Below are positions 1 to 62,300 of a DNA stretch of 64,000 nt, one piece after another (position 1 is the first letter of the stretch; each line of letters begins with the position of its first letter). Below the pieces are notes generated by a model that saw only the letters and a list, made by a program, of their open reading frames with translations, had not been told where the DNA came from and made no database searches. Made by a program: the position numbers and the translations under genes. The DNA comes from Enchytraeus crypticus (Eukaryota > Annelida > Clitellata > Enchytraeida > Enchytraeidae), in NCBI GenBank assembly GCA_905160935.1, contig CAJHZI010000423.1, positions 2,834,001 to 2,898,000 on the forward strand, read 5' to 3'.

Positions 1-661
1 GCAGAATACAGAGAAGAGTGGAGGCGTTATATACCATGGACCTGCCAGTAGGCCATGCATTGAGAGAAAGAAGTGTCTAATGATGTGTTAGTACTGAGTG
101 CTAGATGTTGTCATATTGCATAATGTTCTGTATCCGTTGAAAGTGACATTGTGTTGTCATCAAAGATTGCAACTGTTCATTACTCTTTTCTAACAAATAA
201 TTCTACAGATTATCCCTTTTCTAATTCAATGATTTTTATGCTGAGTCCTAGAGATTGTGTAATATATTGCTATCAGATAGATCTTGATTCTTTGATTGAT
301 TGTAATACTACAGTCTAAACAACATATGTCTCATGTTGATTATTGACTTGATTGATTGTAATACTGCAATCTAAACAACATATATCTCATCTTGATTATT
401 GACTTGATTGATTGTAATACTGCAGTTTAAACAACATATATCTCATGTTGATTATTGACTTGATTGATTGTAATACTGCAGTCTAAACAACATATATCTC
501 ATGTTGATTATTGACTTGATTGTTGTAATACTGCAGTCTAAACAACATATATCTCATGTTGATTATTGACTTGATTGTTGTAATACTGCAGTCTAAACAA
601 CATATGTCTCATCTTGATTGATGACTTTCTGTACTTGGTAATATTAATTGATTCTCTGCAG
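1..661 (+). other. Intron of PDCL
   Basis: No coding sequence recognised. It holds a fragment of a GA-tailed interspersed repeat (about 1-80) and the 56-bp tandem array described separately; the acceptor of the next exon is at 660-661. Confidence 0.6.
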
Positions 662-670
662 TCTATCAGT
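293..670 (+). repeat. 56-bp minisatellite running into a splice acceptor (PDCL)
   Basis: Six units start near 302, 358, 414, 470, 525 and 580. Each carries gtaatactgcagtctaaac or a close variant. The true exon begins ctctgcag|TCTATCAG, so the 10-mer ctgcagtcta of the array is the same as the real acceptor plus first exon bases. The last unit is degenerate and grades into the exon. Confidence 0.8.
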
Positions 671-1963
671 GGACTGCCAGCACTCCTCGTATATCGCAAT
701 GGAGAACTGATAGGAAATTTTCTGCGTCTCGCTGATGAGTTAGGAAGCGATTTCCAAGCAGGAGATGTGGAAGGATTCTTGATTGAGTAAGTTTGATTGA
801 GTTTGATACTAGAATTTAATTCCTCGTGTTGTGTCCGGGTTACTTGAAGAATAGACCAACTGTGTAAATATGCACGTGTCTTAGAAGGCGACACAAAAAC
901 AAGATCCAAACCAGCATCAGAAAGGGGATTCAGTTGGTGAGCGCCTTGGCTCCAGAAATTGCTAAAAAAACTTAACGAATGGAAAATAGTCTATTCGTAT
1001 CCCAACCCTTGTTAAACTAGGATTTAAGGGAGGATGATGATGAATAATATAATTAATGTACGTCCTGTGTTGTGACCGTATCGCTAAGGAATAGACTAGG
1101 AGTGGAAATAAGTACCTTGGACCTACCACTTGGCAGGACACTAGAGAGACAAAAAGCACCTTATAGAAACAATTTGATGCCACCTGTCTAGATGAATGAC
1201 GAATAAGCCACCGGTTGTGACGTCACTGAAAGTGTAACTCATAACCCCTTGTACTGCCGGCTTAACCAGTCTTGTTGTCTTCTAGTCGATCATTTGCAAA
1301 GTCCTAAATAATTTCTGAGGCAGTTACAGAATTGACTATTAGTCGATAAACATTTTGCAACATCAGTTTTCATAAATTTAATATAGTTTTTTTGTAATTT
1401 ATTTTAGATTATATTCTATTCTTTTGAGGCCTTCAGGCTAAACGTTCGTTTGTAAATTGATTTACATTTATATGTTATTGACGATGTTTATGCCTCATAT
1501 TGCTCATATTTGCACTTTGTTATTTTTGCCTTTTATACTTTATTTTCATTTCATTGGTTTTTACATCTTGTATACTTTAACCTATATGCGTTTACACACG
1601 TGCATATTGTTATTTTGAATTAGTGCTTGTTAAGCGTTATTTATATTTAATTGTCTTTCTATATATTTCTTCTGACAAAACAGATAAAATGACTACTGTT
1701 GCAGTTATGGCTGGAGCCATTTATAAGACACTCGACCGCGGATCCGTATTTGCGGGATTCAAATCCTGGGCTCGCCGTCACTGACATGACTTTCGAGTGA
1801 GGTTTCATTTGACGTTAACCTTAGCTTTACCTTAGTTTTATGAACTTGTACTATTACACTTTTGTATTGTTGTTGCAGAAATGGAATGTTACCTGATGAG
1901 CCGACCAGATCAAAGGCTGTGATAAGAAATTCTGCAGTGCAGCAAGATTCTGATAGTGACTAG
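662..1963 (+). CDS. PDCL: Phosducin-like protein, last two exons (5' part outside window)
   Basis: Exons are 662-786 and 1879-1963, joined in phase 2. The joined reading gives LPALLVYRNGELIGNFLR, then a region ending GDVEGFLIENGMLPDEP and a tail VIRNSAVQQDSDSD before TAG at 1961-1963. Family knowledge: this is the C-terminal thioredoxin-like half of phosducin/PhLP1. The LPALLVY..GELIGNF core, GLLP-like turn and acidic SRNSA..DSDSD tail are closer to PDCL (PhLP1, a CCT co-chaperone for G-beta-gamma assembly) than to retinal phosducin. Acceptors are ctctgcag and gttgttgcag; donor is GA|gtaagt. The upstream exons with the N-terminal helices are not in the window. A 56-bp tandem array occupies the intron directly before the first exon. 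Expected to act in the cytosol. Confidence 0.9.
822..1045 (+). mobile_element. SINE-like family C, full-length copy
   Basis: Starts cctcgtgttgtgtccgggtt, includes 'gaatagacca', 'cagaaagggg', 'ctccagaaattgcta' and ends gggatttaaggga followed by (GAT)n. The same order of blocks recurs at about ten other places in the window on both strands. It lies in the PDCL intron. Confidence 0.75.
1060..1170 (+). mobile_element. SINE-like family E fragment
   Basis: Shares 'taccttggacctaccacttg' and 'gcaggacac' with the inverse of the long copy at 55640-56015, and begins with a tgttgtg head resembling family C. It lies in the PDCL intron. Confidence 0.5.
1705..1835 (+). mobile_element. tRNA-derived SINE, family B
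   Basis: Contains gactactcgaccgcggatc-like and gggattcaaatcctgggctc blocks. The second matches a Pol III B box (GGTTCAAATCC type) and the first has an A-box-like look. The 3' part reads ttcgagtgaggtttcatttg and 'gacgttaaccttagctttac'. At least eight more copies lie in the window, mostly inverted. It is in the last PDCL intron. Confidence 0.75.
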
Positions 1964-4958: not shown

Positions 4959-9460
<4,502 letters not shown>

Positions 9461-9671: not shown

Positions 9672-9895
9672 AGGGGTAGCTGTAGCTGTATGACTCTCTT
9701 TGCTGCAGCTGTTTGACGCTATTAGCTGCAGCTATATGGCGCTATTAGCTACAGCTGTATGACGCTATTAGCTGCAACTGTATGACGCTCTTTGCTGAAA
9801 CTGTATGACGCTATACAGCTGCAGCTGTATGACATTATTAGTTGCAGCTGTATGACGCTATTAGCTGCTGCAGTATGACGCTCGTAGCTGCCGTT
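9672..9895. repeat. 23-bp minisatellite upstream of caveolin
   Basis: Roughly nine units of agctgcagctgtatgacgc plus tatt, with variants. It lies 200 bp upstream of the caveolin start codon, so it is in promoter or 5' untranslated sequence. Confidence 0.85.
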
Positions 9896-15985: not shown

Positions 15986-18900
15986 TTATTTTATCTGGAC
16001 TGTAAATGGACTTCCGGGAACCTCACAGCCTGACCATCGGACATCAATCACATACATTCCAGGCTCAGTGGGATTATATTGGCACAGTATCTTACGTCCA
16101 ACTTTTTCCATTTCCACCAGAAACGATCCTGAATGTAAATAAACAGCAAGCTAATAGATAAATTATCTACAATTTTATTTTGTAAAGTTTCCATTATATC
16201 TCGCTAATGTAAGTCTCACGTTATTGACAATTAATTTTATTTAGTGTTCTAGCCAACTTTACTAACTTTAACCCGAATTGTTCCTGAAATTAAACAAACT
16301 TAAAAATAAATAATTAAATTTATTACAATTGCTGGAATAGTGTCTATGTGCCTATATTTTGTATTGTGCTAACAAGTGGTAATATAAGTTGCGTGTCGTG
16401 TTTGATAGAATAGGCTACATTCAATGATGAGCTTCAAATCCAGATATGAAAGCTCTATCAATGTATTTACTGCCAGTTGGAGCTTCTGGGGCGTCTGAAG
16501 CAGCTTCCTATGCTGTCATTGAATTTGAAAAATAAAATACACTTCATATCTCACTAAATCACATTAATAACAATAATATTATACAAAGTTTAACGGCAGT
16601 TTCCTCATTCACGGATGATGCCATGACTTAATGCATATTAATATAGGCCTATCTAATTTGCTTATTGATAAATGGTTAAATGAATTTATAGAAAAATGGC
16701 GAAACCACCTGGTCTTACCCTTAGGACCCCTGACTTTAACAGAGAGTTGTCCAGACCCCGCGGACTTGGTTTCCACTACGAAGCTACTGTCGTAGTCCGG
16801 CAGGAATCCATCCAATAATCCAGATCCGCTTACAATCAACTTGTCAGCATCCGATACATCCCATCCACTCTTTCTTCTGGAGTGTACCAGCTCACTACCC
16901 TTCGATGAATTCTCACTGTTGTTGGCTACCATCTCACTGTCACGTGACGTCACCTTACTGTCACGTGATGTCGCCTTACTGTCACGTTCTGTAACCTTAC
17001 TGTCACGCGATGATAACTTCTTCATATCAGACACTTCACTTCCAATCCTTCTTCGGTTCATCATTGAATCAGTGTAGATTACATCCGATGAACTTCGGTA
17101 AGGCGGGATTATCTTGTCATTTAGAGGCATGCAATTTATTGGAGACGTTCTTCGAACATTGATTGATAGTGAATCATCAGTATATCCGGGTTTCTTTGAT
17201 ACTGAAGAATTTGTTACTAAAGCAGTTGTATCTGGATAATCTAATACTTGATCAGGCAGTTCTGCATCGAGGGCAGTTTGAGCTTCAAATGGTAATAATT
17301 TAACTGGAGACTTGCTTGGTGTCTGATTAGAGAAATTAGAACCTGAAATATTTGTATAACTATACTTAAAAAAAAGTAAATTAATTATTAAGGCTACCCG
17401 AGTTGTGTCCGGGTTGTTGAATAATAGACCAACCACAGGCTGTACTTGTCGTAAAAGGCGACTAAGCACTAAGATCCAAATCAATGTCAGAAAGGGCATT
17501 CGGTTAATGTGCACCTATGCTTCAGAAATTGCTACACCATTTTCTAAAACCGACCCTTGCTAAGCTGGGATTCAAGGGAAGAAGAAGAAGATGATGATGA
17601 TGATGATGAAATGATGATGATGATGATGACGACAATATTATCAATTATTAGAGCATGATCGTCTTCAAGTATATCATATTTGCAAGAATTATTGATTTTA
17701 CTTCAATATTGCCAGATATTTTGCAAGGACCACAACTGTCTCAACCGCAGCTGATTTTCCCAACTTCCTATGAGATACGGTTTGATTTGCTTACTTCTAT
17801 CGCTAAAACATTTTCTCACTAAACATTTATTCTATAATTTTATAAACTTTCAGCTTATGTTTGAAAGAGAAGCCGGAGTTGTAGTGAGCAGCGCTAAGTC
17901 CTAAGACATTTATACGATCCTCGCGGGTTACATTAAAGCGTCCGGTAAAGCGATAAATATCACTGCAGCTACAGGACCCTGGATCCTACAAAACAGCTTC
18001 CGTTTAATAGCCGGCTCCTCGTTTACTGTAAGTTATCTCTACAAACCACTACAGTATCTTTGCTGCTTAGAAAATGCATTTTAAGCTGAAACAATAACGT
18101 CAACTGCTTTATTTGAAATCCATGCTTTGATAGTCAATTGGCCTAAAACAATAGTCAGCGTTCAGAATATTTATTGCAGCTTAAGCCAGACGAATTAAAA
18201 AATACTCCTAAAACGAAATTAATTGATAGGCCATTATTGCAACAGTTGGGTATTTTAAATGCAGATCATCGAGTGGGAGGTTCAAAAAAGGTTCATCGGT
18301 CATAAATGATTTCAAGAGAAAAAGACGGACGTTAAAGCTGGCAGACAACCGTTGTGATCAACTGCTTCAATGTCGGGTGTGCCATTAGATTTCTGAGAAT
18401 AAATACTTCTTTCTACAGATTAGAATTTGATTTTATGATAAGATTTTCTTATAAGCACGGTAACTCGATTACTGTGATAATAAGCAGAGCATTTAAATAA
18501 CGCATTGTAATAGACAGTAAATAATTTTATTTATTTGATAAAAGTGAGTGTAATCAAAAGTAGTGAACGGTTAAGCATTGCAGATATTCAAGAACGGTTG
18601 AGCATTGTAGATTTTCAAGTACGGTTGAGCATTTAACAGATTTGCTTATGTTACAAGACAGTGCGTAACTTAAACAACTTTCGAAATGGTATACTTAAAA
18701 CACACGTGTAACTACATTATAGGCTACCTGAACTGCTGTTAACAGGCTTATAGATATCATCCTCTTTCAGTTTACTACTGGCGTTCTTCGTCGTTTTAGT
18801 TACGTGATGCTTATTGATGACGTCATTCACTACGTCATCGGTACCATCATTAACGTCATCGGAGACGTTGTTTGACAGACCATCCGAAGTGTACCGCGGC

Positions 18901-21900
18901 GCCGGATGTACATGAAATGGAAATGGAGAGCCCGGAATCTGATATCCCGACCACGTGACTTGCAATAAATAGTAACCTAATATTAAAAATGTTTCTTTTA
19001 TTACATGCAGTGGCGATAACTGGTAGATAACATTGAAATCTAGTAATATAAAACACAACAGAATAGAGACACGGCTCTTGGCAGTTACTGATGAATAGAT
19101 GATGGCAGATATGATTTGGACACAGAAGTTATTCTTGCCATTAGAACTTATATGCAATTACACTCGAAGTAAAATGTTGAAGTCTTAAATATTCTTCACG
19201 CTCTCGATTTAAATTAATCAATTACAACTACAACTCATTTATTAAAATTAGCCTAATCATGATGAACTACTTTCAACGTGAATGTTAGTCAATCAATCAA
19301 CAACAATCAATCAAAGTTCACTAAAATTAACAAAGCATTGCGTCTTTTTTGAATAAGTTCTGTGTAACTGTGTGACAAACGAACACTACAGCATCCGTGG
19401 AAATTAATCATATTGAATAAATTGAATCATTAGAAGTAAAAGAAAGACCTGGAGCGGTAGGCAGAATGTCGCATTGGTATAGAGAAGGACTTATCGATAC
19501 ACATGGGACCCTAGTTGAACCGCGATGTCCTAGAAATAACATGCTGGCATCACCTGTACATTATCAATTCCTTATCTACCAAACGTACGAGAGTCAAATT
19601 ACATTAATAAAATATACGTGTATAAGCATTTCTAAATCTATATCTACACGTATATTTAGAGGATTGACTGATGATATGGTTTGTGACAGAGAGGAATGGA
19701 GAAGGTCTATTGGAATCCCGTCCCTAGCTAGACTGGGATTTAAGGGATGAAGATGATGATGATGACGCACATCTAAATCCTGCACTCAGCCGTGGAAAAT
19801 TGATCAAAATAAGTTATGACAATCATTAGTAAACTTAAATTATAATTATAGCTTAGTTTCACGTAGAATTAACAGATGTAAAACGACTGAAATTAAACAT
19901 GGAGGTCGACCTTTAACAGCAAGAATATACAAAAAGTACAATAAATTAAAAAAGTAGGAGATCGTCTTAATCTAAATATGCAAGAAATCGCATATTAAAC
20001 ATTCTCAAGCTTCCACAGCAGTCACACATTACGTAGTAACTACAATCAATTCGCCGATTTGAGAAGAAACGTAGAGCTTATGAGGCCAGGTGAACAGCTT
20101 GATCTTAATTTTTCATCAACTAGCTTAGTATCTAACCTCTCCATACCTTCGGGTAATAAGCCAACTTGTTACCAACTAGCCACTAGGAGGTGTAGCTTAT
20201 GCTTTGCAAATTCTTTTAGCACGATGTTCAGTCCACCATATAAATGGCTAAACGGTATAAAACCCCGTTCAACCGTCTGAAGACACAGACCTAATTGAAG
20301 GATAGGCTTATACATGTAGATTCAAACCTAGCCAAAGTTTACATCTCTACAAAGACACTAAACTGATGGGGTACACTGGCTTAGGAATTATTTTGAATTC
20401 GGCTAAAATTTTTTAAAAAGTCATGAATAAGTAGATAAATATCTAATGAATATGTAGATAAATATCTAAATCACGACACTTGCCTGGATAATTTTTAGTG
20501 CCATCAATCAGCAAGTGAACGACTTGCCCAACAGGGATGTTGTTAAGACTGATCGATGACTTGAGAAAAACCATCTCAGGGGTAGCACTGTGAGGAAAAT
20601 AAATCCTCGGAGTTGGTAATAAAGCGCCGGAAGATACGAGTTTTTTCGAATTAGGCGATAATTTTTTCTTTCCTCCCGTAGCGATGCACACAATAGGCGA
20701 TGACGTCACAGGAAGATTGTTCCAGAATATTCTGAATAAGTATTCACCTTCAACAAATAATAAATAAAAGTGTTCATTATACTGAAAAATAAATAAATAT
20801 ATATTTTGGAAATTTTTTCGACTTTCCGAGAACGGAGAGCTGTTAAGGAAATGTGACGGATAATTTGAAAAGAAATTCTTATGATTCTTTGCTAATTACA
20901 TTGATGGTCACATCCTAATCATTGATACTAATTTAAAAACTTGCATGTAATTTATTATTGCAAATTAAGTTTACAAAATATAAAATATTAAAATTTAAAA
21001 TTGAATAGGTAAGCGACAGTCTATTCCAGTGCACGACTTAAACTATATAATGTTCTTAATTACGCCGGCAATTTCGGTTTTAAATCAGTTAAGATGAGTT
21101 TTAATTTTATCAACCTTTAACTGGAGGGGTGAACTTGATGGAATAGCGATATCTGGAGGAGTGAGTCACTTCTGGAAGAATTTCCAGCTCTGCCGGACAT
21201 AACAGTTGGGCGGTTAACTTACCTGTGCAAAATAATTATAGATTTCACACAATGTATTTTAGAATCAGAGAATCAATTACATCTAATTACGCACTCGTAA
21301 TTAAGTTCTCGATATTATCATTGATGCCTGTAGCACTCTAAGTGTTGCTATTATTCTTATTGTTTCGTAAGAGTTAATTATTGATGATTCGTTAGAATTA
21401 TTTCAACAATACCTGGTCCAGCTCGTTTTGTGTTGAACGAAAGACATTTTCGCGCGTTAACCTTGAGAGGAAGAAATCCGGAAACGTCCAGAATTCGCTT
21501 CCAATTTCCAACCAATTTTACTTGATTAGGATCAAATATCCGTGATTGATATGGACTTCCTGTAATATACAGCGTTGTCAAACATCTACTTAATAGCTAT
21601 AGATCCATTATGAGTAAACGTAAACTCGTTACGCCACTTATTCGGTTTAAACTAATTCAAATTCTTTAAAAAAGTCAGGATCAAGCATTTCTAGTTTTTT
21701 GCAGTCCAAATTGCACGCATGTAAGCATTAACACAAAGGATAAGATAATGTAATAAGGATCATACGGATTGTTTAAATCTAAATGTAGCGATTATCATAT
21801 TGTATATAAACGGAGATGACACTGGCACTCAGCTGAAGTTTTCCTATACAGATTTGATTTACAGCTTTATTTATAAATCTACTGATTAATTCGCAGCGTT

Positions 21901-22624: not shown

Positions 22625-25600
22625 AGGAAGCTGATGATCATTCCAGGTCACAGTGATATAGTGGACTCCCACATCCGTAGGTCTGAAGGTGACTCTGTGG
22701 GCGGATCTATCTTCTGATGAGTCCACTAAACATTTCAACTCTGACCTCGGACCTAAAACATTATCAATCGCGCATGGCTTTATAACTTATCAATAAATAA
22801 AACATTGTAATTATAAATTACATTGGAATTTTTAATCAAACGAGTTAAATTAAAACAAATTTAATGTATTAATCAATCAACGTCAAAATTCGGTTAAAGG
22901 ATCATGAGTAGTTCGTAAAAGCGACAAAATTCGGAGAGAATTGGTAAACATTAAATCTTACATTTCGCATGAATCATTCAGTAATAACACTATAAAGGAT
23001 GTCTCAGTAGCATAGGGGTAACGTCATGAAGTTTTCAATGGCAGACCCTGAGATGAATTGAACCCTCGTGGGTTCGATTCCCAGCCGCGCTGATCTGAGA
23101 GTAAAATCTCGGACATTCACTGGACTGGCTACACGGAAAATGGACTAAATTGCCTAACGGTTTAAACTTGTGGTATTAAAAGTGATAGATATCGACATAG
23201 TTGATTGTTTCATTGCAATGCGTGTTTACTTTACTAATAACAAAAGCTACACTGTCAATTTCTGTATCCAAAGGATCAGGGATCTCATATCCAAGGGATA
23301 AGGGATCTCTCCAGCTCATCACTGCAAATGGATGCATCAACTCGAATGCGATTTTCCGAATTGTGCTGACTTAGAAATATGGGGAATGGTGATATTAAGT
23401 ATTAGGAAATATACTGTATATGTAAATTAGCAAAAGAATTCACTACAGAACTCACCTTACACGGAAAGCAATGGCAACGCGCAAATGTTAATAGCATTTT
23501 CAATGTTTTGCAAATTTTCATTGAGATTTGATTTTATATTAGCATATAGATTGAGAAAAATTAGAATTTGCATTGTAAATTAAATACCTTACAGATGATT
23601 TTCCTTTCCTTTATATTTGTTTACTGAAACAAGTCGAGCAATGTTTTACATTTGATCGAATTGAGTTAAGATTACAAATGAATAAGAATTGAGCTGTTAT
23701 GCAGATTGGATAATTTTTTGTTGGATTTTGTGTTATTGGTAGATCAAATTAAATTAATTTTTAATTTTTTATATTTATTGTAAATTAAATCTTACTGTAC
23801 AGCATAAATTCTATTCTATAAACCGACCTTGGACGTGCAGACTGAGACTTCCATTGTAGTGCTTCGATTCGACAAAGAAGTGGGCGGTCTCAAGTACAAC
23901 CCCGCCCACAAGACCTGAACCATGAACATGTGCCGGGGAGTAGTAGTCAGAGGCCGTCATGAGTCTAGACAATGTGCTACCTTCTGATACAACACATAGC
24001 ATACATATAGCGTCTAACACAAAGCACATAACAACTAGCACAAGGAATATAAAAACTAACACATAACACCACATATAGTGTAACAGAGATGAATGAATTC
24101 AAACACTGTGCTACTTTCTAGTACAACACATAGCATTGAAATCATAGCATCTTACATACAACACATAACAGCTAACGCAAAGCAAATAACAACTATCGCA
24201 TAACAGCTAATACATAACAACTAACACATAATAACTAATACATAATACCACATAAAACATGACGGAGAATAAATGAATTCAAATATTGTGGTAATTTTTA
24301 ATATGACATATAGCATACAAATCAGAGCATCAGTGTAACTACAGCCTATCACTGATATTATATATCATAGAGTTTCACTCTAACTACAGCCTATCACTGA
24401 TATTATATATCATAGAGCATTACAGTAACTTCTGCCTAACTATGATATATCATAGAGCGTCATTATTACTACTGCCTGTTTATGATACAGTACGGAAGCT
24501 GCCACAAGGCTGCTTCGTATATAAGGCCGAGCAAGAGCAGTAGATAATTTGATGTTACATGTTTTCAAGAAATGACTCATCCTTGATTTTATAAATGTAG
24601 ATTTCTCAGGCCCTAAGTAAACTAACAGTTTCACACGTTTATTAATCTTATTTAAATCGCAATGGTAACTAAATATAGGAAACTAAAAGTAATACGAGGA
24701 CGTGGTTCCTGCCAGGGGTTTCCGCTGGAGGTCATGGAAGGTGGAAGATCTCGACAGAAGCAGCACTTGACGGTATCGATCCATCGCTTTGAGCTTCGGT
24801 GGATTGAACCCTCCTGTCCTGGGGTCAAACTCTCAGAAGGGTGATATCGATGTTGGTCATAACCGAACGAATTGCAGTAGTCAAGTTTGATCTTCTCCGA
24901 CATACAGTCTTTTTTGTCTGAGATCTGAGACATATAAAAGAGAGAGTATGTCTTGATGCTGTTTGAATATGACAAATACTGCAGGATTAAGATATCAACC
25001 CCCTGTATACAACTTTTACTGACTTTAAATGTAGCGTACCTTATCTTGAAATATTTGCCACTGGAACTCAGATTTTCCACATAATTTTGCGTTTCTACCA
25101 GAGTAAAACAGATAAATCAGTTTGGCTTTGGCATTTGCGATGCCAGATATTCTAATTTCGAAACAATTTTAAAAATATAATCTTGAAAGAATAATCAAAT
25201 AACAAATTTTAACGCTTAAAAAATTCAAATATCACAAGATATTTCATTAAACTACCTTTTGATATTGTTAAAGAAATTTTTCTAATTCCAGGCCAAATTC
25301 TTGCTGTTCTAGCTGGATTGCAGTCTAAATTCTAAATTAATTCTTCTAACTCTAGGTCAGTATTTATGTGTGTTTATAAAGAAAAATTAAATTAAAACTA
25401 GAGATGAGATATAAAACAATATCGGAACACTATTACACCATTGCTGAAATGAGAGGGCTAATATTCACCTGCTCATTTGGCATAACCACCGTTGAATCCT
25501 GCTGGTATTTATTTATCTCAAATGTCTCCATCGTTGTTTCCCCGTGCCTTCTCTCAGCCTTCAGCTTTAACATCTCCCTATTAACAATGTCATCCAGCTG

Positions 25601-35000: not shown

Positions 35001-38000
35001 CATAGTGGTTGATGTAATGCTGCTGGCTGCAGAACAATCATCACTCAGCTATATTACTTAAATATTGAATTAGTCTAGACAGTTTGCACCTTTTTTTGTG
35101 TGATTTGTCAAATATTTTTACATGTCCTTCTTAGTGCAGCTTTCATTATTAGACTTTATTGGTGAAAAATATGCTTGAATGAATTCAGTGTAGAAATTAC
35201 TATTATATATTACATGCTGGAGCTATCAATTTGAATATTGTAAATGTTCTATTTATCCTTTCTCACACTAGTGCGATGCTGTTGTTGCTGTCAGGTGAAG
35301 CTAACTTCGAGAAGGACATGCGACGGTGTTTGGTCGAGTCATACAAGAAATTGGATGAAACGTTTCTGGCAGAAGCTAGAGTTAAGTATGACGCATTCTG
35401 TCTAGTGTGTGTATCATCACTAGTGAATATTAGTGAATGGCTCTCTAATTATATCAAGGCTCTCTTAGTATATCAATATATATTGCATATCATTTCTCGG
35501 TGTTTAGCTCGATTACAAAAGGTTTCCTCAGAAACCTAAAACTAGAGTAATTGTTTTCTGCTCTTGCAGTTAAATTACTAGATGACTATGTTATATTAAA
35601 TACTATTATATTACTATATGCTAAGCTCGATAATACTACGTCTTAAGTGGGAAGGTCACTGCTAAATCTTGTTACCAGTTCACAAGATGGCTATCTGATG
35701 GGACATCCAGTGATAACTGTATTAAGTATATCAACATCATCATCATCTTCCCTTAAATTCCAGTTTAACCAGGGTCGGGATACTAATCGATTTTCTAAGT
35801 TTACCCATTCTTTTAAGTTTTTGTAGCAATTTCTGGAGCCAAGGCGCTCACCAACCGAATGCCCTTTCTGATGTTGGCTTGGATCTTGTTTTTATGTCGC
35901 CTTCTTCGATACGTGCATATTTACATGGTTGGTCTATTCTACAAACAACCCGGACACAACACGGGGATTATATCAGCATCACTTACAATTTTTCTGAAAG
36001 AACCACGTGTAAATCCTGATACTGATGGATAATTGTTTTGACTGATATTGCAGGAAGCCGTCGTGGAAGGACGGGTCTACGGCTGTGTCTGTTCTAGTTG
36101 TGGATAATACTCTCTATGTAGCGAATGTGGGAGACAGCAAGGTGTGCTAGGCTATAGCTATCATATTATTCTATCTGTATACTTTAATTTTTTATTTAGT
36201 ATGGCAACCAACGCCTGAATATAGTTGATTATTTGAAATTGTAATGATTGTATCGGGTAATTGTGGTAACAATATTTAAATAGCCTTAAATAATAATATT
36301 AATAATAATAACAACAATAAGAGTGCTACAGTCATCAATGACAACTTCGAGCGCATTGAGACAAAATAAAGCCAACGAGCAAAAAGAAGGTCCCAAAACC
36401 GTGCAAATTCCAAAATCCAGAAAATCAGTCAAAGTAAATAATAATTTAAGATCCTTTGTTTTATATTAAATACCATGAGCTTATATATAGCGTTTCGTAC
36501 AGGCCATTCTATGCAGAAGAAATGCAGAGACAGGCAAATACTCGGCTCTGTCTCTCTCAGTGGATCACAGTCCATCTCTGTATGAGGAGAGAATGAGAAT
36601 ACAAAAAGCTGGTGGTCACGTGAGGTATGATTGTACTTATTCCTATTTATCATTTAATTGCATTGCTATATCATCATAATGGCATCAGGCCCTGCATCTG
36701 ATATAAATATTGCAATGCAAGGCGATACAAATATATTTTTACGATAAGAATTCTCTTTAGAGTTCTGACAAGAGGTAGGTCCAAGGTACATGTTCGTAGT
36801 CAGAGTCTGTTTTCACACTCCATGGATCAACAAGTTAAACCCTTCGCAATTCTATGCATTTGTGAAGGGATTATGATAAGAACACTATTCGTCTAGTGCT
36901 CAAACGGTATAAACACTTGGTAGACCTTTATAAAACACTCTAGTTATTGTTTGGTCTCTTCTTGAGAATTTGATATCAAGCTCTTTGTTTATACATTCTA
37001 TTCAGTCACGATTCATTTGACATTTGATTCATTTGACAGCTTTCCATTATGTATTGTCCTTTGCGATTAATAGAAATTTTGTTGGCTTTATATCTTTCTT
37101 ATAGTGTAATTTGGGTTACATAAATTTATAGAAATCTGTGGAAATATTTCATATTATATATGTTAGATTATTCCAAAGATAATCAAATATTAAATGTTTA
37201 TTCTGCTTGCTATAACTGTTTGCATTATATCTGTTATTATTTTGCACTATATCCTTTATTACCATTTCATTCATCATCTTCCCCCAAATTCCAGCCCAGC
37301 CAGGGTCCAGTTGCAGAAATTTTTGTAGCAATTTCTGTTGCCTAGGCACTCACCAACCGAATGCCCTTTCTAATGTAGAATTAATATGTTATAATAATGA
37401 ACTGATATTGAATCCGTTCACTATTATAACATATTAATTCTACTTACTATAGCAGTATAATTATATCTATTTTCCATAAGGATATATTGTTCTACTTGCT
37501 ATAGCAGTATAATTATATCTATTTTGCATAGGGATGTATTGTTCTACTTACTATAACGGTATAATTATATCTATTTTCCATTGGGATATACTGTTCTACT
37601 TACTATATAACGGTATAATTATTTATGTTTTGTATAGGGATGTATTGTTCTACTTACTATAGCGGTATAATTATATCTATTTTATATTGGGATATATTGT
37701 TCTACTTACTGTAACGGTATAATTACATCTATTTTCCACAGGGATGGTCGGATGATGGGTGTGCTGGAAGTGTCGAGGTCTATAGGGGATGGGTCATTCA
37801 AGAATCACGGGCTCTCCTGTGTTCCTGATATCAAAAAATGTCAAATCACACCCGATGATAAGTGAGTAGGCATGTCGGCTCAAAATAACTCCATTGCTGG
37901 ATGACTGTCTTAACTTCCATGACTGTCATGTATTGGAAACTTTTGTGATCACTATGGTTCAGTAGCATTTAGTCTTCTGAAATAATTTTTTTTAATTGTG

Positions 38001-46620: not shown

Positions 46621-47603
46621 TACACGAATTAATTGATATTTGCTTGTCCTATGACGAATACCATTGTAGATATAGCTGCAGCAGAAAACATAACTTTAGC
46701 ACTGACAGGACACTAAAATGAAAACAGTGTAGTGATTTAAAATGTATATGCCCTTTAACATATTTAAAAATTATCAATTCATTACACTATTTCTTTCTAC
46801 AATACTTTAAAAATTGACAGTTAAAAGATAAGAAACTACAAAAAATTCTGGCATATAGGAATCAATAAGAATCTAACGTCCGGTTCCTCGCCATAAGGCA
46901 ATGTCAGGAACGTCACTTGCAGACTCTACACAAACAGATGCCAAAACACCACACGATGACGACTGAGTACACAGAGACCACACTAGAAAAAATTTTGGAT
47001 TCTATCAGAAATACAACAAATGCAGTGTAGAGATCTGCTCCAACATATTCCTAACTGCACTGGCATCAACAGTTGGGTCACAATTGAAATGAAATTCTAA
47101 AACGTTTGCTTGAAAAGGTCAGATCGACGGTTTACCATAATTTAATCCCTTAAAAGCCAAGTCATCTTGAATTTTGGAGTTTTCTGGATTTTCGAATTTG
47201 CAGTTTTGAATCTTTTTTGCTCACAGGCTTGCATTTGTCTCAATAGTGTTGTCATGGGTGGTAGTAGCACACTAAGTGATATATTATGTGTAATAAGTAA
47301 TTACCTTATTATTGTGCAATCTGAAATATTGTGTGGGCACTTAGTAAGAAGTAAATAAGTGACACTTAAAATATATTGTTGAATAGGATTTATGAATATA
47401 CGTCGAAACTGTTTAATGCACCGTATATTTTAGTGAGCCTTAAATAGTCATTTGAAGCTTCCGAATCCAGTACTATTAATATAAGTTACAATTTAGACTT
47501 TATTTCAATGAGCGATATTCACTTATTTTTTTGGCTCGAGTCACTTTTATTTTTTTAAATTTTACTAATTTTTATTAGTTTCTTAGGAATATGGTACGTT
47601 GGG

Positions 47604-47632
47604 GTTAGGGTAAATGGTAAGGGTTAGGGTTA
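47604..47632 (+). repeat. Short interstitial telomere-like TTAGGG words
   Basis: ggggttagggtaaatggtaa followed by gggttagggttagcg: four TTAGGG-like units with one interruption. Confidence 0.6.
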
Positions 47633-47690
47633 GCGATAGTTTTAAAAACTAAAATTAAAATTACTCTTTTTTTAAAGTCAACAAATCCTT

Positions 47691-50750: not shown

Positions 50751-53700
50751 TTTATCCCAAAGTGGACACTGTATCATAAAATATCACTATCAAATATTAT
50801 GCAAAAATTAATTTTCAAAATGATCTAAAAGCTTTATTTTCTCAGAGGTAAACTGTATCATAGTTATTCAGTAAGTTATTTGTTTGATTTTAGCTGGAAG
50901 AATGTAACGTGGAAGTGGCAGAGTGCTTATACAAAGAATATACAGATGTTGTTTCAAGGTCATCTTCTGAAAGTGAAGCCACTTATAAAACCTACAGCAT
51001 CGTTAGTTACATAATTCTATCATCAATTTAAATGCTTTTTATAATATCTATAGGCCTAGGCTGACAGAGGCGAGAGGTGCTAAGTGATTTAACGACACAC
51101 TAGTATAAATAAAGATGCGAGGAAAGCAGAGGATAGAATTAGTTGAAAGAATATTATGTCCATGTGCCTGTCAGTAGGAAATACTCAGGGAGAGAGAAAG
51201 AAAGTTACAGAGTGAATAAGGACCTTATTTTTGCATAATGCATATTCCATTAAGTATTGTAATGAATTTAGGGTTGCTTGAAAAATTTACCCTGTCTGCC
51301 AGAGGCTGCCAATAATTAATATAACAATATGTTGCCTTTATTTTTTTATTTTATACCTCTTTCTATCGCAAATTTTAGTCTGACTTTCTGATATGTTGCT
51401 TATTTTTCAAGAAGCAGAACATTGCTTCCTTCATTTCTAGTAAGGCAGATAATTAGGCTAATTAAGTTGATTAATGCTAATTATGTAACTACTTAGTAGA
51501 CATCATTGATGTCGTCTTTTTGCTGACTTTGGTCTCATACTTGCTGGCTCCAATTTATAAGGCAGTTAATAAATCCAATCTTAATTATGAAATTCGATTT
51601 TTAATTTCTATCTAATTAACTTTATTTAAATGTGATTCTAAATATTTTAGAATGATCAATGCTGTATTGTCTTAGAAGAATCAACTAGAATTGTCTCCAA
51701 TGGAACTACTGGTCTATGTACCTGGCAGGTTAGTTACTGTATTTTTATTTTTTAGCTTTAATTATTGTTGTGATAGTATTGCTATATATGTTTATTACTC
51801 AACAGTATTGGATAAGGGCATGATAAATTATCACCGATGATTTTAGAGATCGGCAATCAGACTTTAAAGTTTCTCAGGATGGATTATTTTGAAATTGTGT
51901 GACATTAGCAGCGACTATATACGCTGGACTGTTTACAGTCCCAAATATTTTGTGCATGAAATGTTAACAAAATCCAGTGAAGAAGAGTGAAAATGTCAGA
52001 ATTATTAGAGAAACTTGGAGTTGTAAGAGCGGAGAGTTTGAAATGTAATATAAAGATTTGAAAGCAGCGTGATGTAACAATTTTTGAAGAACCTTGGCAC
52101 TCATCCTAGCGACCTTACACTTTGTGTTTTCAAAGATTGTTTACAATCCGGAAATTTAATTTGATTAATTTCTTCAGTTTTGCACACTTAAAGATAACGC
52201 CTGTGAGAGATATGCAGACATTAGTGAAGTCTAGTAGCCAATTAACTAATAGATGCCAGATGGATAAAAAATAATGAATTCTACTGCTTTTGGAATCAAA
52301 TTTTATCAATTTCATTTCACTTTTAGCTTGAAGGCCCATGTTTATAGAGTATGTTATTTAATTTTTAAGTTATAGATAAAAACCAAATTTGTATAAATGG
52401 TTTTCAGTTACATAATTACTCCACTTTCTTTAAGTATATTGATTATTTAATGTATGCTTATATCTATACAAGCTTTAAAATTTAATTAAACATTGTTTAG
52501 AGATGCAGTTAATTTATGTTTATGATTTCATAAGCTGTTGCATTGCATTTTTTCACAGGCTGCACAGTATATGGCAGAATGGATTTTGGAAAATGAGAGC
52601 ATTTTCAAGGATAGGTATTGAACTTTTTAGAACATATTTTACTTGGTTTATGTAGCACGAAATAAGTAATTATGTAACCCTGTTATTAAAATGTCAAATT
52701 TGATATATTAGATCAATTCTTAATAAAGCATATAAACTATTATTAGTTTTTAAGTAATTCCTGCTGCATTAACTTTTTTGATTAGTTTCATAAATTGTAT
52801 TTATATTTGCATTATTTGATCCTTAATGAAATGCGTTAGTTTTTTTGCATCTTTCAGCCTTTTGGACTGAATATCTGTTAGTAAAAGTACTAAAAAATGG
52901 TTTTAACGGTTTAGTCATTTAATGCTGCTAGACTGTTAGGCCTTCATAAATACTCTCTCAGAGACTGACCGACTGGGTTTCAAACTCGTGTCCTCATTCC
53001 TATCAGACAAGTGAGCTGACAATTTGGCAATCCAGCGGGTGTAATGACCATTAAGACGCTGATCACATTAAGATTAGCGACTATTTAACATTGATTTACA
53101 TCAAAAATAAAATATACTCTATCTTTGCACGTGTGCGCCACACCTAATTAGCGTATTTATGTTTGTGTGCAATTTATATGTGTGCTGATGTTGCAAGTAT
53201 TTTCTCGTGTATGTGTACTGCAAATAGTTATTTGCTTATGTTTATGGATGTAGGTGTAAGCTACATCTAATTAGTGTGCTTATGCTGATATGTTCAGGTG
53301 TATGCTACGTATAATTAGTGTACTTACTTTTGTGTATGCAAGTGTTTACTGCGCCTAATTAATGTGCTGATGTTTGGGTGTGCAAGTGTTTGTTACGTCA
53401 AATTAATGAGCTTATGTTTATGACTGCAGGTAAGTGCTACATCAAATTTGTGTGCATATGTCTAATTAGTGTGCTTATGTTTGTGTGTCCTACTTCAAAT
53501 TAGTGTGCTTATGTTTATGCATGCTATGCTTACGTGTGTTTGTGTTCTACATATAAATAATGTGCTTATGTTATGTCTGCAGGTGTGTATTGGAGCTAGG
53601 GAGTGGCTTAGGCTTTACTGGACTTGTTTTGTTTAAATGCTGTCAGAGCAAGCGAGTCACTCTGTCAGACTGCCACAGCAGCGTTCTAGCAACTCTGCGC

Positions 53701-55118
53701 TCTAACATTCTGCGTAATGTTGGCGATGAACTTTTCAGAGAAGGGTTTCTTGGTAGTGACATTGAAAGTAGTTGCGACACAAAAGATGATGAAAGAATCG
53801 ATGTACTAGATTTGGACTGGGAGAATTTTACTGATGAACAACTGGATTCTCTAAGGCAAACCTATGAAGTGTTCATCGCTGCTGGTAAGTTACAGCCCTT
53901 CTGAGACTTCGTAACGAATGAATATATTAAGGTTTTATTTTTTTATTATAATAATCTATTAGATTTGGTTTCTAATGAATACAAATAATGCAAATTCACA
54001 TTTATTGCTAACTCAGCTAATTATAATCAAATAACTGAGTTATGTTTTATAAATACTTTCATTTTATGTGACTCCTGTTTTCTGCTTGGGCTATGGCGTA
54101 ACTATTGAAAACTGTTCAGAAATGTTGAGAGTGGCCTAGATCAAGAAAAACAGTTGGTATTCTCATGCATACATATTTTGTCTAGAATTTTCTACTATTT
54201 TATTTTTGTAGACGTCGTGTACGATGTGAGTATAATTCCTGCTCTTGTTCGACTTCTTTCGGCAGTTCTCCACTCCGTAGCCACCGACAGCTCCACAGAA
54301 AAGTTTTGTCTGATGTGTAGTACCATCCGAAACGTTGACACATATCAACAATTCCTAGCCAGTTGCGGTAATTTCTCGCTTCTGTTGTAACTAAAATATT
54401 TAATGTAAGTTTTTAAAGACATTGTCATCGATATACCTTGAAACCTGGGAAATTCAAATCTGGCCTATAGCCAGAGCTTGCTATATACACGTTCCTCGAG
54501 CCCTTTATTTTGACAGTTTCTGGAGTTCTAACCTCTTAACGAATATTTTAAATTAAATTTTCTCTGTTCTTAACTGATCATTTCGATTTCGGATGACCAA
54601 CATTTAATTGATCCTATGTTTACAACTTCGATAGAGAGTGGCTTTGGCTTCGTAATACGCGATCATGGATTAACTCTTCATCATCGTTATCATCTTCCTT
54701 TAAATCCCAGTATAGCTAGGATCGGGATACGAATAGATCTTTTCCATTACTCTCTGTCCCACATCGTATCATCAGTCAATTCTTATTTTTCATGTCCTTC
54801 TTAATCACCGCTTGCCATCTCGCTACCATGGAGTTACTGTCAATGGAAAATGTTATTTAACATTTTCACTATTGTTGATATTTCTACAGAAATATTAATT
54901 TCAGACTAGCTGCTATTCGAAGTTTTTTTATTTATTAAAACATTTTTATGTATTTTGCAGATGACGCTGGATTGGAGCATAAACGACTGAAGAAACCACT
55001 AAATAGAACTTTTTATTTTGATCGAAAAGTACCCATAGAAATTATCCTATTGACAACAAAATCTAATTTCGTAAATATTTATAGGCAACTAGAACATCTT
55101 TTGATCAAAGATGAATAG
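48333..55118 (+). CDS. EEF2KMT: eEF2 lysine methyltransferase (FAM86 family), eight exons, complete
   Basis: Exons: 48333-48404, 49925-50065, 50894-51001, 51651-51728, 52559-52614, 53583-53884, 54212-54367, 54961-55118; phases agree, 356 residues (human about 330). MNYIEKELFRQFTAVVPLKE and HPHSVKYPAPIQYRRCFLKH match the FAM86 N-terminal region. GTTGLCTWQAAQYMAEWILE leads into the class I SAM-binding motif VLELGSGLGFTGL, then LSDCHSSVL, DLDWENF and IAADVVYD. Family role: cytosolic trimethylation of a conserved Lys of elongation factor 2. Start ATG chosen because it opens the conserved N-terminal block. The stop TAG is followed after about 20 bases by AATAAA (55140). An acidic insertion of about 25 residues after the LRSNIL block makes exon 6 longer than in human. 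A minisatellite lies on the exon 6 acceptor. Confidence 0.95.
50100..50180 (-). mobile_element. Short interspersed repeat, family D
   Basis: (AAT)n tail, aaggcttaacgtccatttcc, 'tcatacaaggatgatgtcag', ggacgtcccccc; starts 35 bases after EEF2KMT exon 2. Confidence 0.7.
50645..50750 (+). mobile_element. SINE-like family E fragment with (GA)n tail
   Basis: 'ggaatacagagaagtgtgga', 'gccatggacctgctagtagg', cagtgcaca then about 46 bases of GA; the same block opens the window (1-80) and a diverged copy lies at 51115-51210. Confidence 0.65.
53110..53590 (+). repeat. Minisatellite (about 45 bp) running into the EEF2KMT exon 6 acceptor
   Basis: Units contain taattagtgtgcttatgttt plus 'gtgtatgcaggtgtttgcta' variants, about nine times. 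The true junction is tgttatgtctgcag|GTGTGTATTGG. Earlier units read atgactgcag|gtaagtgct, atatgttcag|gtgtatgct and ggatgtag|gtgtaagct, all decoy acceptors with exon-like following bases. Confidence 0.8.
54678..54795 (-). mobile_element. SINE-like family C, 3' part (inverted)
   Basis: 'tcatcatcgttatcatcttc', ctttaaatcccagtatagct and 'aggatcgggatacgaatag'; in EEF2KMT intron 7. Confidence 0.65.
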
Positions 55119-56619: not shown

Positions 56620-57379
56620 CTAGGGCAAAAAATAATCCCCTAGCGAAATCTCAATTAAATTTAAGAAAACTCAAAATATCTCTACAAAATTTATGGAGCT
56701 GCTAGGGGAGGAATTTCTGCGTATATCCTGCAAATATGATGAAAATATTTTCAGTAGTTACAAAATTACAGCATTTCTACGAGAAAGGTGCTAAAACCAA
56801 TTTTAACAAGGCTTTTTGATATGTCAGTCGTTCCTTTTAAAGAAAAAAACGACGACCCTGAAAAAGGCCGTTTACTTAAGTGGTGGAGTTTAAGCCTGCA
56901 CTACCATGTTAGCTACTCCAATAAAAGATGCTTAAAATTCGTTCTTCTGTTAAAATTATTTCTAAATTTAGAAGAAAATGTCCGGTACTTTTGTTTAAAT
57001 AGGCCTTGTTAGAATTGATTTTAACTTTTTTTTTCAAAGAAACGCTGTATTTTTGCTATTTCTGAATATATTTTCACCAAATTTGCCTGATATATGTAGA
57101 AATTCCTCCTCTAGGAGCTCCGAAAATTTTGTAAAATTATTTTGAGTTTTGTCCAAATTATTAAGACTTTTGTTTAAAAAAGCCTTGTTAAAACTTATTT
57201 TGCACTTTTTTCGTAGAAACGCTGTAATTGTTTTCCTGCTCATTAGATTTTCATCAAATTTGCAGAATATACGCAGATATTCCTCCTCTAGAAGTTCTGT
57301 AAATTTCGTAGAGATATTTGTTGTTTTCTTAAAGTTATTGAGATTTCGCTAGGGGATAATTATTTTTTGCCCCAGTCTG
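56616..57379. mobile_element. Non-autonomous DNA transposon with long TIRs
   Basis: Left cagactagggcaaaaaataa, right inverted cagactggggcaaaaaataa. Similarity continues for well over 100 bases, including 'cccctagcgaaatctcaat' and 'gaggaatttctgcgtatat'. Internal blocks (aaacgctgta, cctcctctaggagctc) repeat the TIR, so the element is partly built from TIR copies. The taatcccctagc block is shared with the element at 45108-46072. It is inserted in TA-repeat DNA, so the target duplication cannot be read cleanly. Confidence 0.7.
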
Positions 57380-57399: not shown

Positions 57400-57401
57400 T
57401 A

Positions 57402-57470
<69 letters not shown>

Positions 57471-57476: not shown

Positions 57477-57479
57477 GGC

Positions 57480-58110
57480 CTATATACAGAAGTGAATATC
57501 ATTTAAAGCCTTTTGCAGATCCGCACAGTTAGATTTATTCTCAATAACTGTGAATAGCTTAGTATCATCTGCATAGAGATAGAGAGAGACAGGGTTAGGA
57601 CAACAAACGCTAATGTCATTTATATAGATCATAAAAAGAATGGGCCCCAGGACGCTTCTCTGTGGTACCCCACTAATAACAGGTGACCACTCAGAGCATA
57701 CACGGTTAATTCTAACTGATTGAAGTCGACAGGACAAAAAGGAGGTCAACCAGTCCAGCAAATTTCCATCTATCCCGTACAAATTTAATTTATATACATG
57801 TAATAGTTTAGAGTGGACAATGCAATCGAAAGCTTTCGAAAAATCTAAGTAGACAATGTCAACCTGATTTACACCACCTAATAATGAGGACAAATCATTT
57901 GTATAACGAAGGAGTTGGCTGTTAGTGGATCTTTTGGGTGAGAAACCATATTTCTTAGGGTATAATGTTTTTGGTTTTCAGGTAGGCCTAAGCAAGTAGT
58001 TTGTCTTTAATTACAATCTCCATAAGTTTGCAAATAATAGAGGTAGGCTTAAGACTAATTGGTCGATAGTTTTTGATATCCGACCTCACACCCTTTTTAA
58101 ATAATAACAT
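57480..58110 (-). mobile_element. LINE reverse transcriptase fragment (CR1/Jockey-like)
   Basis: The minus strand reads KKYGFSPKRSTNSQLLRYTN, then VDIVYLDFSKAFD, WLTSFLSCRLQSVRIN, SGVPQRSVLGPILFMIYIND and the catalytic LYLYADDTKLF. Upstream, in another frame, SDIKNYRPISLKPTSIICKL gives the preceding RT block, so at least one frame change separates them. The piece covers fingers and palm only, with no endonuclease, 5' end or tail. It is a dead, 5'- and 3'-truncated copy. Confidence 0.88.
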
Positions 58111-58355: not shown

Positions 58356-58384
58356 TTAAACAGACTACGACAGCTCCAGTCAGT

Positions 58385-58520: not shown

Positions 58521-58944
58521 CCATACAGAAGATGTTTTAGTTTAATCCACCAGTGCATTGTATTTAGCCGAATAAATCATAGAATTAAGAGATTTTTATT
58601 ATCTAATTCAAAATTTCGATTTTGCATAGCAAATATAGGGGCCTACAGTGTAATGTAAATAATGGAATAGCACTTTATTGCAAAATCAGGGTTAACCCAA
58701 GGTACTAAGCAATTATAGGTACCCGAATAAAGGAGATTGAAGTGGTTTTCCTGATTTCTATTCTATTCTCATATTTAGGTAATTCGTAAAATACTATGAT
58801 TTTCCTGTACGAATGCCGGTAGAATTTATTTTATATGCCAAAATCAATCGTTTATAGATTTGTTTTATAGCTCATTGTTAATTGCTAAAAGCTTAAAATC
58901 TAGCTAACAATGATAGAACACGATAATAAATTAATATTTACTAT

Positions 58945-59195
58945 TGTGAATGTCATAGTAGCGTAGAGGTAACCGTGGTAACGTGATGAAGTTTTAAATG
59001 ACAAGTCCTAAGGTGAATTGAACTCTCGTGGGTTCGAATCCCAGCCGCGCTGATCTGAGAATAAAATCTCGGACATTCACTGGACTGGATACACGGAAAA
59101 TGGACTCAATTGCCTAACGGTTTAAACATGTGGTATTAAAAAGTGATAGATATCAACATAGTTGATCATTTCACTATAATGCGTGTTTACTTTTT
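58945..59195 (+). mobile_element. tRNA-derived SINE, family A, full length
   Basis: 'atagtagcgtagaggtaac', gggttcgaatcccagccgc (consensus B box), cggacattcactggactgga, 'gtttaaacatgtggtatt', 'gatcatttcactataatgcg' and a T-rich end. Confidence 0.88.
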
Positions 59196-59212
59196 TTACT
59201 TTTTACCCAAGT

Positions 59213-59385
59213 TGTTGGGTAGAATTACAACCCCACCTGACCCAAGGTATTTGGTAGAATTACAACCCCACCTGACCCAAGTTGTTGGGTAGAATTACAA
59301 CCCCACCTGACCCAAGTTGTTGGGTTGAATTACAACCCCACCTGACCCAAGTTGTTGGGTAGAATTAGAACCCCTTCTGACCCAT
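59213..59385 (-). repeat. 40-bp minisatellite starting at the TBK1-like stop codon
   Basis: On the minus strand the gene ends gggtcagaaggggttcTAAttctaccc. Four to five further units read gggtcaggtggggttgtaat plus tctacccaacaactt. The unit therefore includes the last coding bases and the stop-codon region. Confidence 0.85.
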
Positions 59386-62300
59386 GTGGCCTGGACGGGA
59401 GGAGGGCCTCTGTATCCTATCCAGCAGCTCATTCTGTTCCAGTACAAATGACTCCACGTCCTTCACCAGGGCAGAGTTCTCTTCTCCAGTGATCTTGAGA
59501 GCGTCCATCAGTTCCTTGGCCTCACTGGAGGTGGAACACTCCCTCCGATCTACCACATCGAACCCCTGCGCTTCTCCATGTGCGCTGAGATACATGCGGA
59601 CGATGACTCGACACTTTGAGGGCTCAGATACGCCGAAATGGAATTAACGTGTGAAGGCAACTTGTTGCTTTCAGGAAAGATGTAGGCGGAGCATGTGGAT
59701 GACGCACTGGAAGTGTTGCTGGAATTTCCAGCAGACGCGACCCTTCCAGACGATGGAGCAGAATGGGGAAGGTGGAGAAGATTTGGAGTAATGGAGGCTT
59801 CTCGGACATCTGAAGGTCTGGGAAGGGTTCCAGTGAACCCTGATGCTCTCGCCCTGTTGGACAGTCCATCGGGATGATCGACTATCGCTGTTGGATGATG
59901 ACAGAAAAAAGACGATCAAAAGCTTCCACGTAGATCTTTATCATCCCCTTCAGCTTATCCAGATTCACTTCAGAAGAAGCCAGATTCAGTCTGAGTCCAT
60001 TAGTCTTGCTCATCCATTCCTGGTACAGCTTGTGGCGATACTTCACTCCTGGCAGACAGAAGTTGGAAAGGATAGAAAGAGCTTCGATGCAGATTTGAGG
60101 AAATTTTTTCGTCCGTATTGCTGCTCCAGTTGGCGATCCTTAGTTAGGGATCTGGCCAAACGATCATGCTTCCAGGCTTCCCTCTGCCTCTCCAAACTTT
60201 TGATGATCTCGTCCAGTTTGAGCAGGTTCTCGTCCTTTCTCCAGGAATCCACGTCGCTTCCTCGCTCGAACAGAGCATTCGCTTCCTCGAGAGATTTTTT
60301 GAGACGATTTTCTGCATTTTTCAGATCAAGCGTCATCTTTCCAGCGTAATCATCCATGTTCATGTTCATGTCCATGATCTCACTGACCCTCGTGTCTCCA
60401 GCCTAACAAGCACACATACATAGACTCATATGTAACGACATGAAGTTCTAAATGTCTGTTGGTGAGGTCCTGTAATCAGTTGAGCTGATCAGAGCGTAAA
60501 ATCTCGGACATTCACCTTTCAGGGTACACCGATACATCTGACGTCCTTAAGAAAAACACTTCCGGTTTCTAATATTAACTTTAAACCCGCAAAATTGACC
60601 ATTTTTGATCACCGGACCGGCTTTCGTTTAGAACTTTACTTCTCAGCACATTTCTTTTTCAGATTGATCTGGGTGAATTGATCTGTAGTGATTTGTGCTG
60701 TGGGGACGTCCCTAATCATCCCTGAATGACTAAAAGGACGTTAAACTTTATTATTATTATTATTAAAATAATAATAATAATCATCATCATCTTCCCAAAT
60801 TAATAATCTTTATTCAATTAATTTTTCTTCAAAATACTAATTTTTCTTTAATTTTTTCTTCATCAAAATAATATTAATAATAATAATTAATGTTATTATC
60901 TTTCTTGCATAATACTGGAGCACTGCTAATTGGACTCGCTTCTAATTTCCAATCTTAACGTAAAACCCAAAAAATTATAATAATTAATATAATAATTATT
61001 ATTATCTTACCTGCATCATGCTGGGGCACTGCTGATACGCCTCCTCCCCGATGAAGAGGTTGAGGCGCGTGGCGAGTTCCTCGAAGAGGCTGTAGACCTT
61101 GTCCACGGCGGCTCGCTGGGTGGCGATCATGTTGTGAGCGAGATGGCGCTGGTAGGTGGCGGCAGCTTCCCCCAGGAGGGCGGAGTTGTGCAAGAGGTCT
61201 GCACCGTGAGGCGCAGGTAGTGGACCACCTCGCAGCAGGCTGTGATGTAGAGGTAGTAGGGGTCAGGAAGGGAGCTGTTCGGTAGAACCTAGTGCTCAGG
61301 AAGTAATAGCTGCTTAGTAGACTTAAAACAGTTCAAAAACATGGGGTCGGTCACTCACGGTCTCTTAGGTATATTTTTAGACCTGTCACTCACAGTCTCT
61401 TAGGTCTATTTATAGACCTGTCACTCGCGGTCTCTTAGGTCTATCTGTAGACCTGTTAGTCACTGTCACTAAGGTATGTTTATAGAACTGTCACTCACAA
61501 TCTCTTAGGTCTATTAATAGACCGATCACTCAACGTTTCTTAGGTCCATTTAAAGACCTATCACCCACAGTCTCTAGGTCTATTTATAGACCTGTCACTC
61601 ACCGCCGCTTAAGTCTATTTAGAGACCTGTCACTCACCGTCACTAAAGTTTATTTACAGACCTCACCGTCACTTAAGTCTATTTATAGACCTGTCACTCA
61701 CTGTCTGTCTGTTAGGTCTATTTATAGATCTGTCATTCATGTCTATTAGGTCTATTTATAGACCTGTCACTCACCGTCGCTTAAGTCTATTTAGAGACCT
61801 GTCACTCACCGTCACTAAAGTTTATTTACAGACCTCACCGTCACTTAAGTCTATTTATAGACCTGTCACTCACTGTCTGTCTGTTAGGTCTATTTATAGA
61901 TCTGTCATTCATGTCTATTAGGTCTATTTATAGACCTGTCACTCACCGTCGCTTAAGTCTATTTAGAGACCTGTCACTCACCGTCACTAAAGTTTATTTA
62001 CAGACCTCACCGTCACTTAAGTCTATTTATAGTCCTGTCACTCACCGTCAATTATGTCTATTTATAGACCTGTCACTCACTGTCCGTTAGGTCTATTTAT
62101 AGATCTGTCATTCATGTCTATTAGGTCTATTTATAGACCTGTCACTCACCGTCATTTAAGGCAATTTATAGACCTGTCACTCACCGGCAGTGTGGGCATG
62201 ATACGATCCACGAAGAGCTAGCGGTAGCACCGGTGGTCATGTTTGTTGAGCTGATGTAAACAAATATAGGGTTCGAGGGTGTGGTTTTGCTACTTGGCTC

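Follow-up and report, generated by a model that had tools for sequence, protein, structure and literature searches.

Copies of exon-intron junctions, in minisatellite arrays or as irregularly spaced repeats, lie beside six splice sites in a 64,000 bp stretch of contig CAJHZI010000423.1 (hereafter, the window). Such copies recur at loci outside the window, local duplications are lost inside exons, and two further arrays lie on stop codons. We suggest that these structures probably reflect general minisatellite growth that is tolerated beside coding sequence, with duplications across a coding edge being silent. The sequence-only reading of the window had named arrays on seven junctions, in PDCL, caveolin (one donor and one acceptor), a filamin-like gene, ILKAP, EEF2KMT, and a TBK1-like gene, and had offered two explanations: a local duplication process that starts at splice boundaries, or selection tolerating duplication there.

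Tandem Repeats Finder (TRF) reported 26 tandem arrays in the window, and junction anatomy was resolved by aligning a probe of 30 intron plus 22 exon bases, with gaps allowed, to the neighborhood of each junction. Junction-crossing copies were clear at six of the seven named junctions (ILKAP, EEF2KMT, TBK1-like, caveolin donor and acceptor, and filamin-like), with 2-22 exon bases copied. At all six, the units carry the splice signal together with adjoining exon bases and the real junction is the innermost copy, as had been described. The ILKAP acceptor has five copies besides the real site, each matching 30 intron and 4-5 exon bases; the crossing copies of EEF2KMT hold 2-10 exon bases, and an additional, nearer copy at the caveolin donor matches imperfectly over 22 exon bases. 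At the filamin-like acceptor, the copies contain up to 15 exon bases and are irregularly spaced, not forming a regular array. The seventh junction, the PDCL acceptor, is a weak case: its array stops 34 bp before the junction, and the two share the core CTGCAG/TCTA (score 13).

Each of the 26 arrays was also compared with all 67 annotated junctions in the window, which the sequence-only reading had put at about 40. The nearest junction was the sole top rank for five arrays (caveolin donor, ILKAP, EEF2KMT, TBK1-like donor, and an AT-rich filamin pair), against about 0.4 top ranks expected by chance (26/67), and the PDCL array ranked its own junction second of 67, in a tie. Eight own array-junction pairs scored at least 13, two of them on the wrong side (PDCL donor and filamin 20747); the TBK1-like donor did not score in this comparison because too few exon bases match. 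The pairing of array 20423-20469 with the filamin acceptor at 20747 was judged to be due to chance, being AT-rich and on the exon side.

The same anatomy was found in a blind set that was not picked for repeats, which comprised the 200 kb flanks of the window, a collagen stretch of 10 kb, and nine kinase loci on other contigs, and which contained 63 arrays and 258 predicted junctions after exclusion of locus L024 (one third N). A small model, for which the window served as training set, supplied the exon predictions; the flank exons include false ones, and Pfam confirms only part of them. Six clear cases are listed in Table 1, and weaker two-copy cases were seen at an RPF2-like acceptor and an MST-like donor. 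We take the names AGGF1, SNRK, PAK, MST, RPF2, and perlecan from the look of the peptides; Pfam matches at the named loci were to G-patch, immunoglobulin and laminin G, Brix, and Pkinase, with none for the AGGF1-like FHA exon. The majority of inspected junctions, including those of the ten further exons predicted in the collagen stretch, carried no junction-copying array, and none was present at the annotated junctions of TRNT1, the seventh gene of the window.

Duplication profiles around exon ends bear on what places the edge of an array. At window acceptors, local duplication amounted to 14-17% in the interval 40-300 bp upstream, fell to about 10% on the acceptor itself and to 4% over +4 to +15, and was 0% farther into the exon; at window donors it was 7% at the junction, 3%, and then 1% and 0% going inward, and deeper than 15 nt inside the exons of the window genes it was 0-1%. 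Among predicted exons of the flanks, some of them false, acceptors had a window-like profile with lower values, and donors had 0.9% at the junction and 3-5% inside the exon. Two arrays lie on stop codons: one in the TBK1-like gene, whose edge is coding and, to judge from the reading frame, no splice site, and one at locus L026. The loss of duplication going into exons, together with the stop-codon arrays, therefore points to coding constraint as what sets the array edge, and the same observations support the earlier suggestion of tolerance by selection.

Table 1. Junction-copying and stop-codon arrays. Coordinates are those of the window or of the locus named; cut, position of the splice junction.
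Feature	Location	Cut	Strand	Structure
ILKAP acceptor	window, array 37438-37746	after 37741	+	52 bp x 5.9; last unit is the acceptor (TRF, alignment)
EEF2KMT acceptor	window 53222..53582	53582	+	44 bp units 53233-53461, then decayed copies up to the acceptor
TBK1-like donor	window, array 61350-62186	62184	-	35 bp x 24; first unit (transcript sense) is the donor
Caveolin exon-1 donor	window 9008..9226	9226	-	array 9008-9174, 59 bp x 2.8
Filamin-like acceptor	window 23983..24322	23983	-	two further crossing copies, starts 24148 and 24322
Caveolin exon-3 acceptor	window 5238..5307	5237	-	single extra copy, 18 intron + 7 exon bases; not a regular array
PDCL acceptor (weak case)	window 292..661	after 661	+	56 bp x 6.0 array 292-627 plus decayed end
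AGGF1-like acceptor	L006 4471-4710			50 bp x 4.8; about 26 exon bases copied
AGGF1-like donor	L006 6827-7117			31 bp x 9
TBK1-like kinase exon	L013 515-757			29 bp x 8
Perlecan-like acceptor	L021 3325-3643			57 bp x 5.6
SNRK-like acceptor (other contig)	L031 1371-1580			three units; about 29 exon bases
PAK-like donor (other contig)	L030 1317-1566			four units
TBK1-like stop-codon array	window 59205-59384		-	35 bp x 5.1; stop of the last reading frame in the first unit
Stop-codon array	L026 1240-1417			starts within the terminal codons, stop included, of a reading frame

Two other arrays near coding sequence were noted in the window: a 21 bp x 3.7 in-frame repeat of SRDSKVT-like units inside a filamin-like exon (16936-17012), which is a rare array in coding sequence, and a 23 bp x 9 array (9677-9891) lying 5' of the caveolin start codon, which matched no annotated junction.

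The mechanism that we propose starts from a genome that would generate and retain many minisatellites. Tandem duplications would arise with arbitrary breakpoints, would be purged within coding sequence, and would persist in introns and other noncoding DNA. A duplication over a coding edge would leave the exon with one intact edge, namely the final copy at acceptors and the initial copy at donors, and the messenger RNA (mRNA) would be unaltered provided that the decoy copies are unused; later growth would occur on the noncoding side by slippage or unequal exchange. If edge duplications are silent in this manner, arrays ending on a splice junction or a stop codon would need no process aimed at splice sites. 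Hairpins were considered as a driver and rejected: unit stems were no longer than those of shuffles across the 26 arrays (combined P 0.48), and stem length was exceptional only for the caveolin donor unit (P 0.003).

Enrichment at splice edges is modest and depends on the null chosen. Local duplications occupy 7.2% of unmasked positions over 264 kb. Of the 65 unmasked window junctions, 5 had a local ungapped copy (score at least 16) against 5.2 expected from 8.0% of unmasked positions (P 0.60), in a position test that misses the gapped cases PDCL, EEF2KMT, and filamin-like. The statement that the arrays at junctions were far beyond chance therefore fails in this test, and an excess is seen only under nulls based on end units or on unique neighborhoods. 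Comparison with shifted exon ends, which had been proposed as a check on that statement, gave no enrichment for the predicted exons of the 200 kb flanks (acceptors, 6/93 vs 4.3 expected, P 0.26; donors, 3/88 vs 4.4, P 0.83), because the genome is rich in local duplications.

A bias towards splice edges would be compatible with the stricter nulls. Under the end-unit null, in which an array cannot extend into an exon and only its end unit may meet a junction, the expected numbers of arrays on a junction were 0.37 in the left flank, 0.45 in the right flank, and 0.89 in the window. Bare TRF coordinates gave 1, 1, and 2, respectively, and alignment gave five in the window (the four top-ranked arrays and PDCL; Poisson P 0.002), which had been pre-selected by the sequence-only reading. 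Several results weigh against tolerance as the sole cause. With unique exon-like neighborhoods as the null, 9 of 181 junctions had copies against 2.95 expected (P 0.003; 0.044, 0.002, and 0.011 at three other thresholds), and acceptors carried the excess (7/94 vs 1.5; donors, 2/87 vs 1.4). In the blind set, nine of the 63 arrays matched their own predicted junction against 2.11 expected, a count reached in none of 2000 simulations. Two of the nine were dropped by eye (left flank 56890-57255, where the predicted exon lies wholly inside the array, and right flank 54476-54561, where the exon is doubtful) and the L026 array was reclassed from a splice case to a stop-codon array, which leaves six clear cases against an expectation kept unlowered at 2.11, about a 3-fold excess (Poisson P 0.02). 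The upstream flanks of acceptors are also richer in duplications than intron farther away.

Such an excess, with its weight on acceptors and its higher duplication 40-300 bp upstream of them, would fit a process in which duplication begins preferentially at or near splice boundaries, chiefly acceptors, as might follow from breaks linked to transcription or splicing, with survivorship shaping the arrays. We regard this as rather unlikely, yet the most serious alternative: there is no excess over shifted exon ends in the flanks or over all window positions, two arrays lie at stop codons, and affected donors are no commoner than the unique-neighborhood null predicts. A duplication process starting at splice boundaries is not needed when shifted ends score about equally and the excess under stricter nulls is about 3-fold.

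Wrong exon models or assembly stutter might also create apparent junction copies. The gene models of the window were hand-built from open frames, splice consensus, and homology, without transcripts, and the frame of the TBK1-like gene is broken in places; uncertain regions, namely one intron each of ILKAP and the filamin-like gene and the 3' portion of the TBK1-like gene, do not contribute to the 67 annotated junctions. However, no internal stop arises when exons are joined for PDCL (the final two), caveolin, EEF2KMT, TRNT1, and the C-terminal part of ILKAP (eight exons), and all five products match known proteins; units within one array differ among themselves; and the pattern recurs on other contigs, so that an artefact is improbable. 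In the filamin-like gene, filamin repeats were detected in two pieces. The identity of the TBK1-like gene is confirmed by a kinase exon just beyond the window, for which TBK1 gives the best PDB matches; the exons within the window, which we presume to belong to this gene, contain frame breaks and gave no Pfam match above the cut-off where tested, including the exon at about 63 kb. Frame breaks were noted in exons of this gene (window 59381-63345; L013 181-525), and its kinase exon has DFR where human TBK1 has DFG; the gene may be decayed, diverged, or affected by sequencing errors.

The copied splice sites act as potential decoys, and their use is predicted to be destructive for 46 of the 47 counted: only one of the 20 acceptor decoys that retain the motif (six cases) and none of 27 donor decoys (four cases) would keep the reading frame without a stop. 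Some decoys match the real site in score. Therefore, the spliceosome would have to take the innermost site reliably, or wrong products would have to be destroyed, and decoys are presumably used rarely. The level scores of some decoys, and the retention of many donor copies in the TBK1-like array (14 with the exact motif), could be taken to mean that the arrays are functional and that repeated splice sites tune splicing or expression; the near absence of stop-free frames among the decoys, as well as perlecan-like decoy units that lack the 6 bases holding the AG, makes this very unlikely. Selection against decoy AGs was considered as well: AG retention appeared to fall below the unit-identity prediction in some of the acceptor arrays, but the counts include the real site and neighboring units share losses, and this pattern was not used as evidence.

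That the arrays are relics left by a dispersed mobile element or introner inserting at, or bringing, splice sites is the least probable explanation, in spite of a perfect 22 bp inverted repeat (window 37375-37396 / 37422-37443) the right arm of which extends into the beginning of the ILKAP array, since unit sequences differ between genes and two arrays searched against the whole genome (524 Mb, 802 contigs) matched only themselves in a search that skips common words. Other elements of the window were named by eye: a reverse-transcriptase-like open frame (57480-57977, minus strand) and dispersed short interspersed nuclear element (SINE)-like elements with boxes resembling those of transfer RNA (tRNA), e.g., at 5338-5450, 22990-23230, and 58925-59190. 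Scans of the window for tRNA and Rfam families gave no matches. A short TTAGGG-like repeat run lies at 47600-47640, internal to the contig.

Protein relatives of two window genes indicate the host lineage. By E-value, the best named relative of ILKAP is from Helobdella robusta (63% identity), with two unnamed contig proteins at 65-67%; other named relatives (molluscs, sea urchin, and mammals) are mostly at 57-59%, and two aberrant vertebrate entries rank high at 50%. The best named relatives of TRNT1 are from the nemertean Lineus, molluscs, and Lingula (54-56%), followed by the annelids Capitella (53%) and Dimorphilus (52%), with Branchiostoma far down the list at 50-51%. The host is therefore a lophotrochozoan, perhaps an annelid, and not an amphioxus.

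It is conceivable, although short of an even chance, that splice-junction minisatellites form a genome-wide lophotrochozoan class affecting a few per cent of all exon ends, hence thousands of them should the analyzed stretches be typical, with an approximately 3-fold excess at splice edges, mostly at acceptors; that the spliceosome picks the innermost of up to two dozen near-identical sites; and that new splice sites and introns can continually be drawn from the arrays. If the pattern is general, these loci would be ready-made tests of splice-site choice, in which the real site competes with near-copies whose use wrecks the mRNA, and the arrays would bear on the gain of splice sites and introns.

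Intron gain was explained in the Rogers model by tandem duplication of an AGGT-holding exon segment, as in the potato RNA-dependent RNA polymerase (RdRp) gene (PMC4974935). That process likewise involves tandem duplication near splice signals; here, in contrast, existing junctions are copied into the intron, and no new intron was seen. First-intron minisatellites were reported in earthworm metallothionein genes (PMC12783039), which are similarly intronic tandem units in an annelid; unlike the arrays presented here, they are not described, in the portions of that account consulted, as copying an exon edge and splice site.

The closest counterparts are the amphioxus "mirages", minisatellite-like tandem duplications of exon-intron boundaries described in Adh3, the globins BflGb6 and BflGb9, troponin C, and PGBD5, for which normal splicing and haplotype length change were demonstrated (PMC3087553, PMC3902484). 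Within the open-licence PubMed Central literature, we recognized no further lineage with mirage-like structures, non-amphioxus matches being judged mainly from titles and abstracts. As in the published descriptions of mirages, the tandem units reported here run across the boundary and include the AG or GT signal as well as adjoining exon bases, as found at six window and six outside junctions; both kinds of boundary are affected (donors of caveolin, TBK1-like, AGGF1-like, and PAK-like genes; acceptors of ILKAP, EEF2KMT, filamin-like, and other genes); the cluster ends with the authentic junction; and unit sizes overlap (10-72 and 150-160 bp in mirages, 29-77 bp here). In contrast to the mirages as described, arrays here also occur at stop codons, and the host is lophotrochozoan by its protein relatives whereas the described cases are cephalochordate, a difference of lineage that we treat as non-defining. 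The link to mirages drawn by the sequence-only reading thus holds for the kind of structure and not for the lineage, the relatives being leech and nemertean. Judged by their sequence features, the arrays appear to be the same in kind as amphioxus mirages and new in a second lineage, with a modest excess at splice edges. If general, the presence of amphioxus-type mirages in a second, distant lineage would favor a general rule, namely that coding-edge duplications are silent, over a cephalochordate peculiarity.

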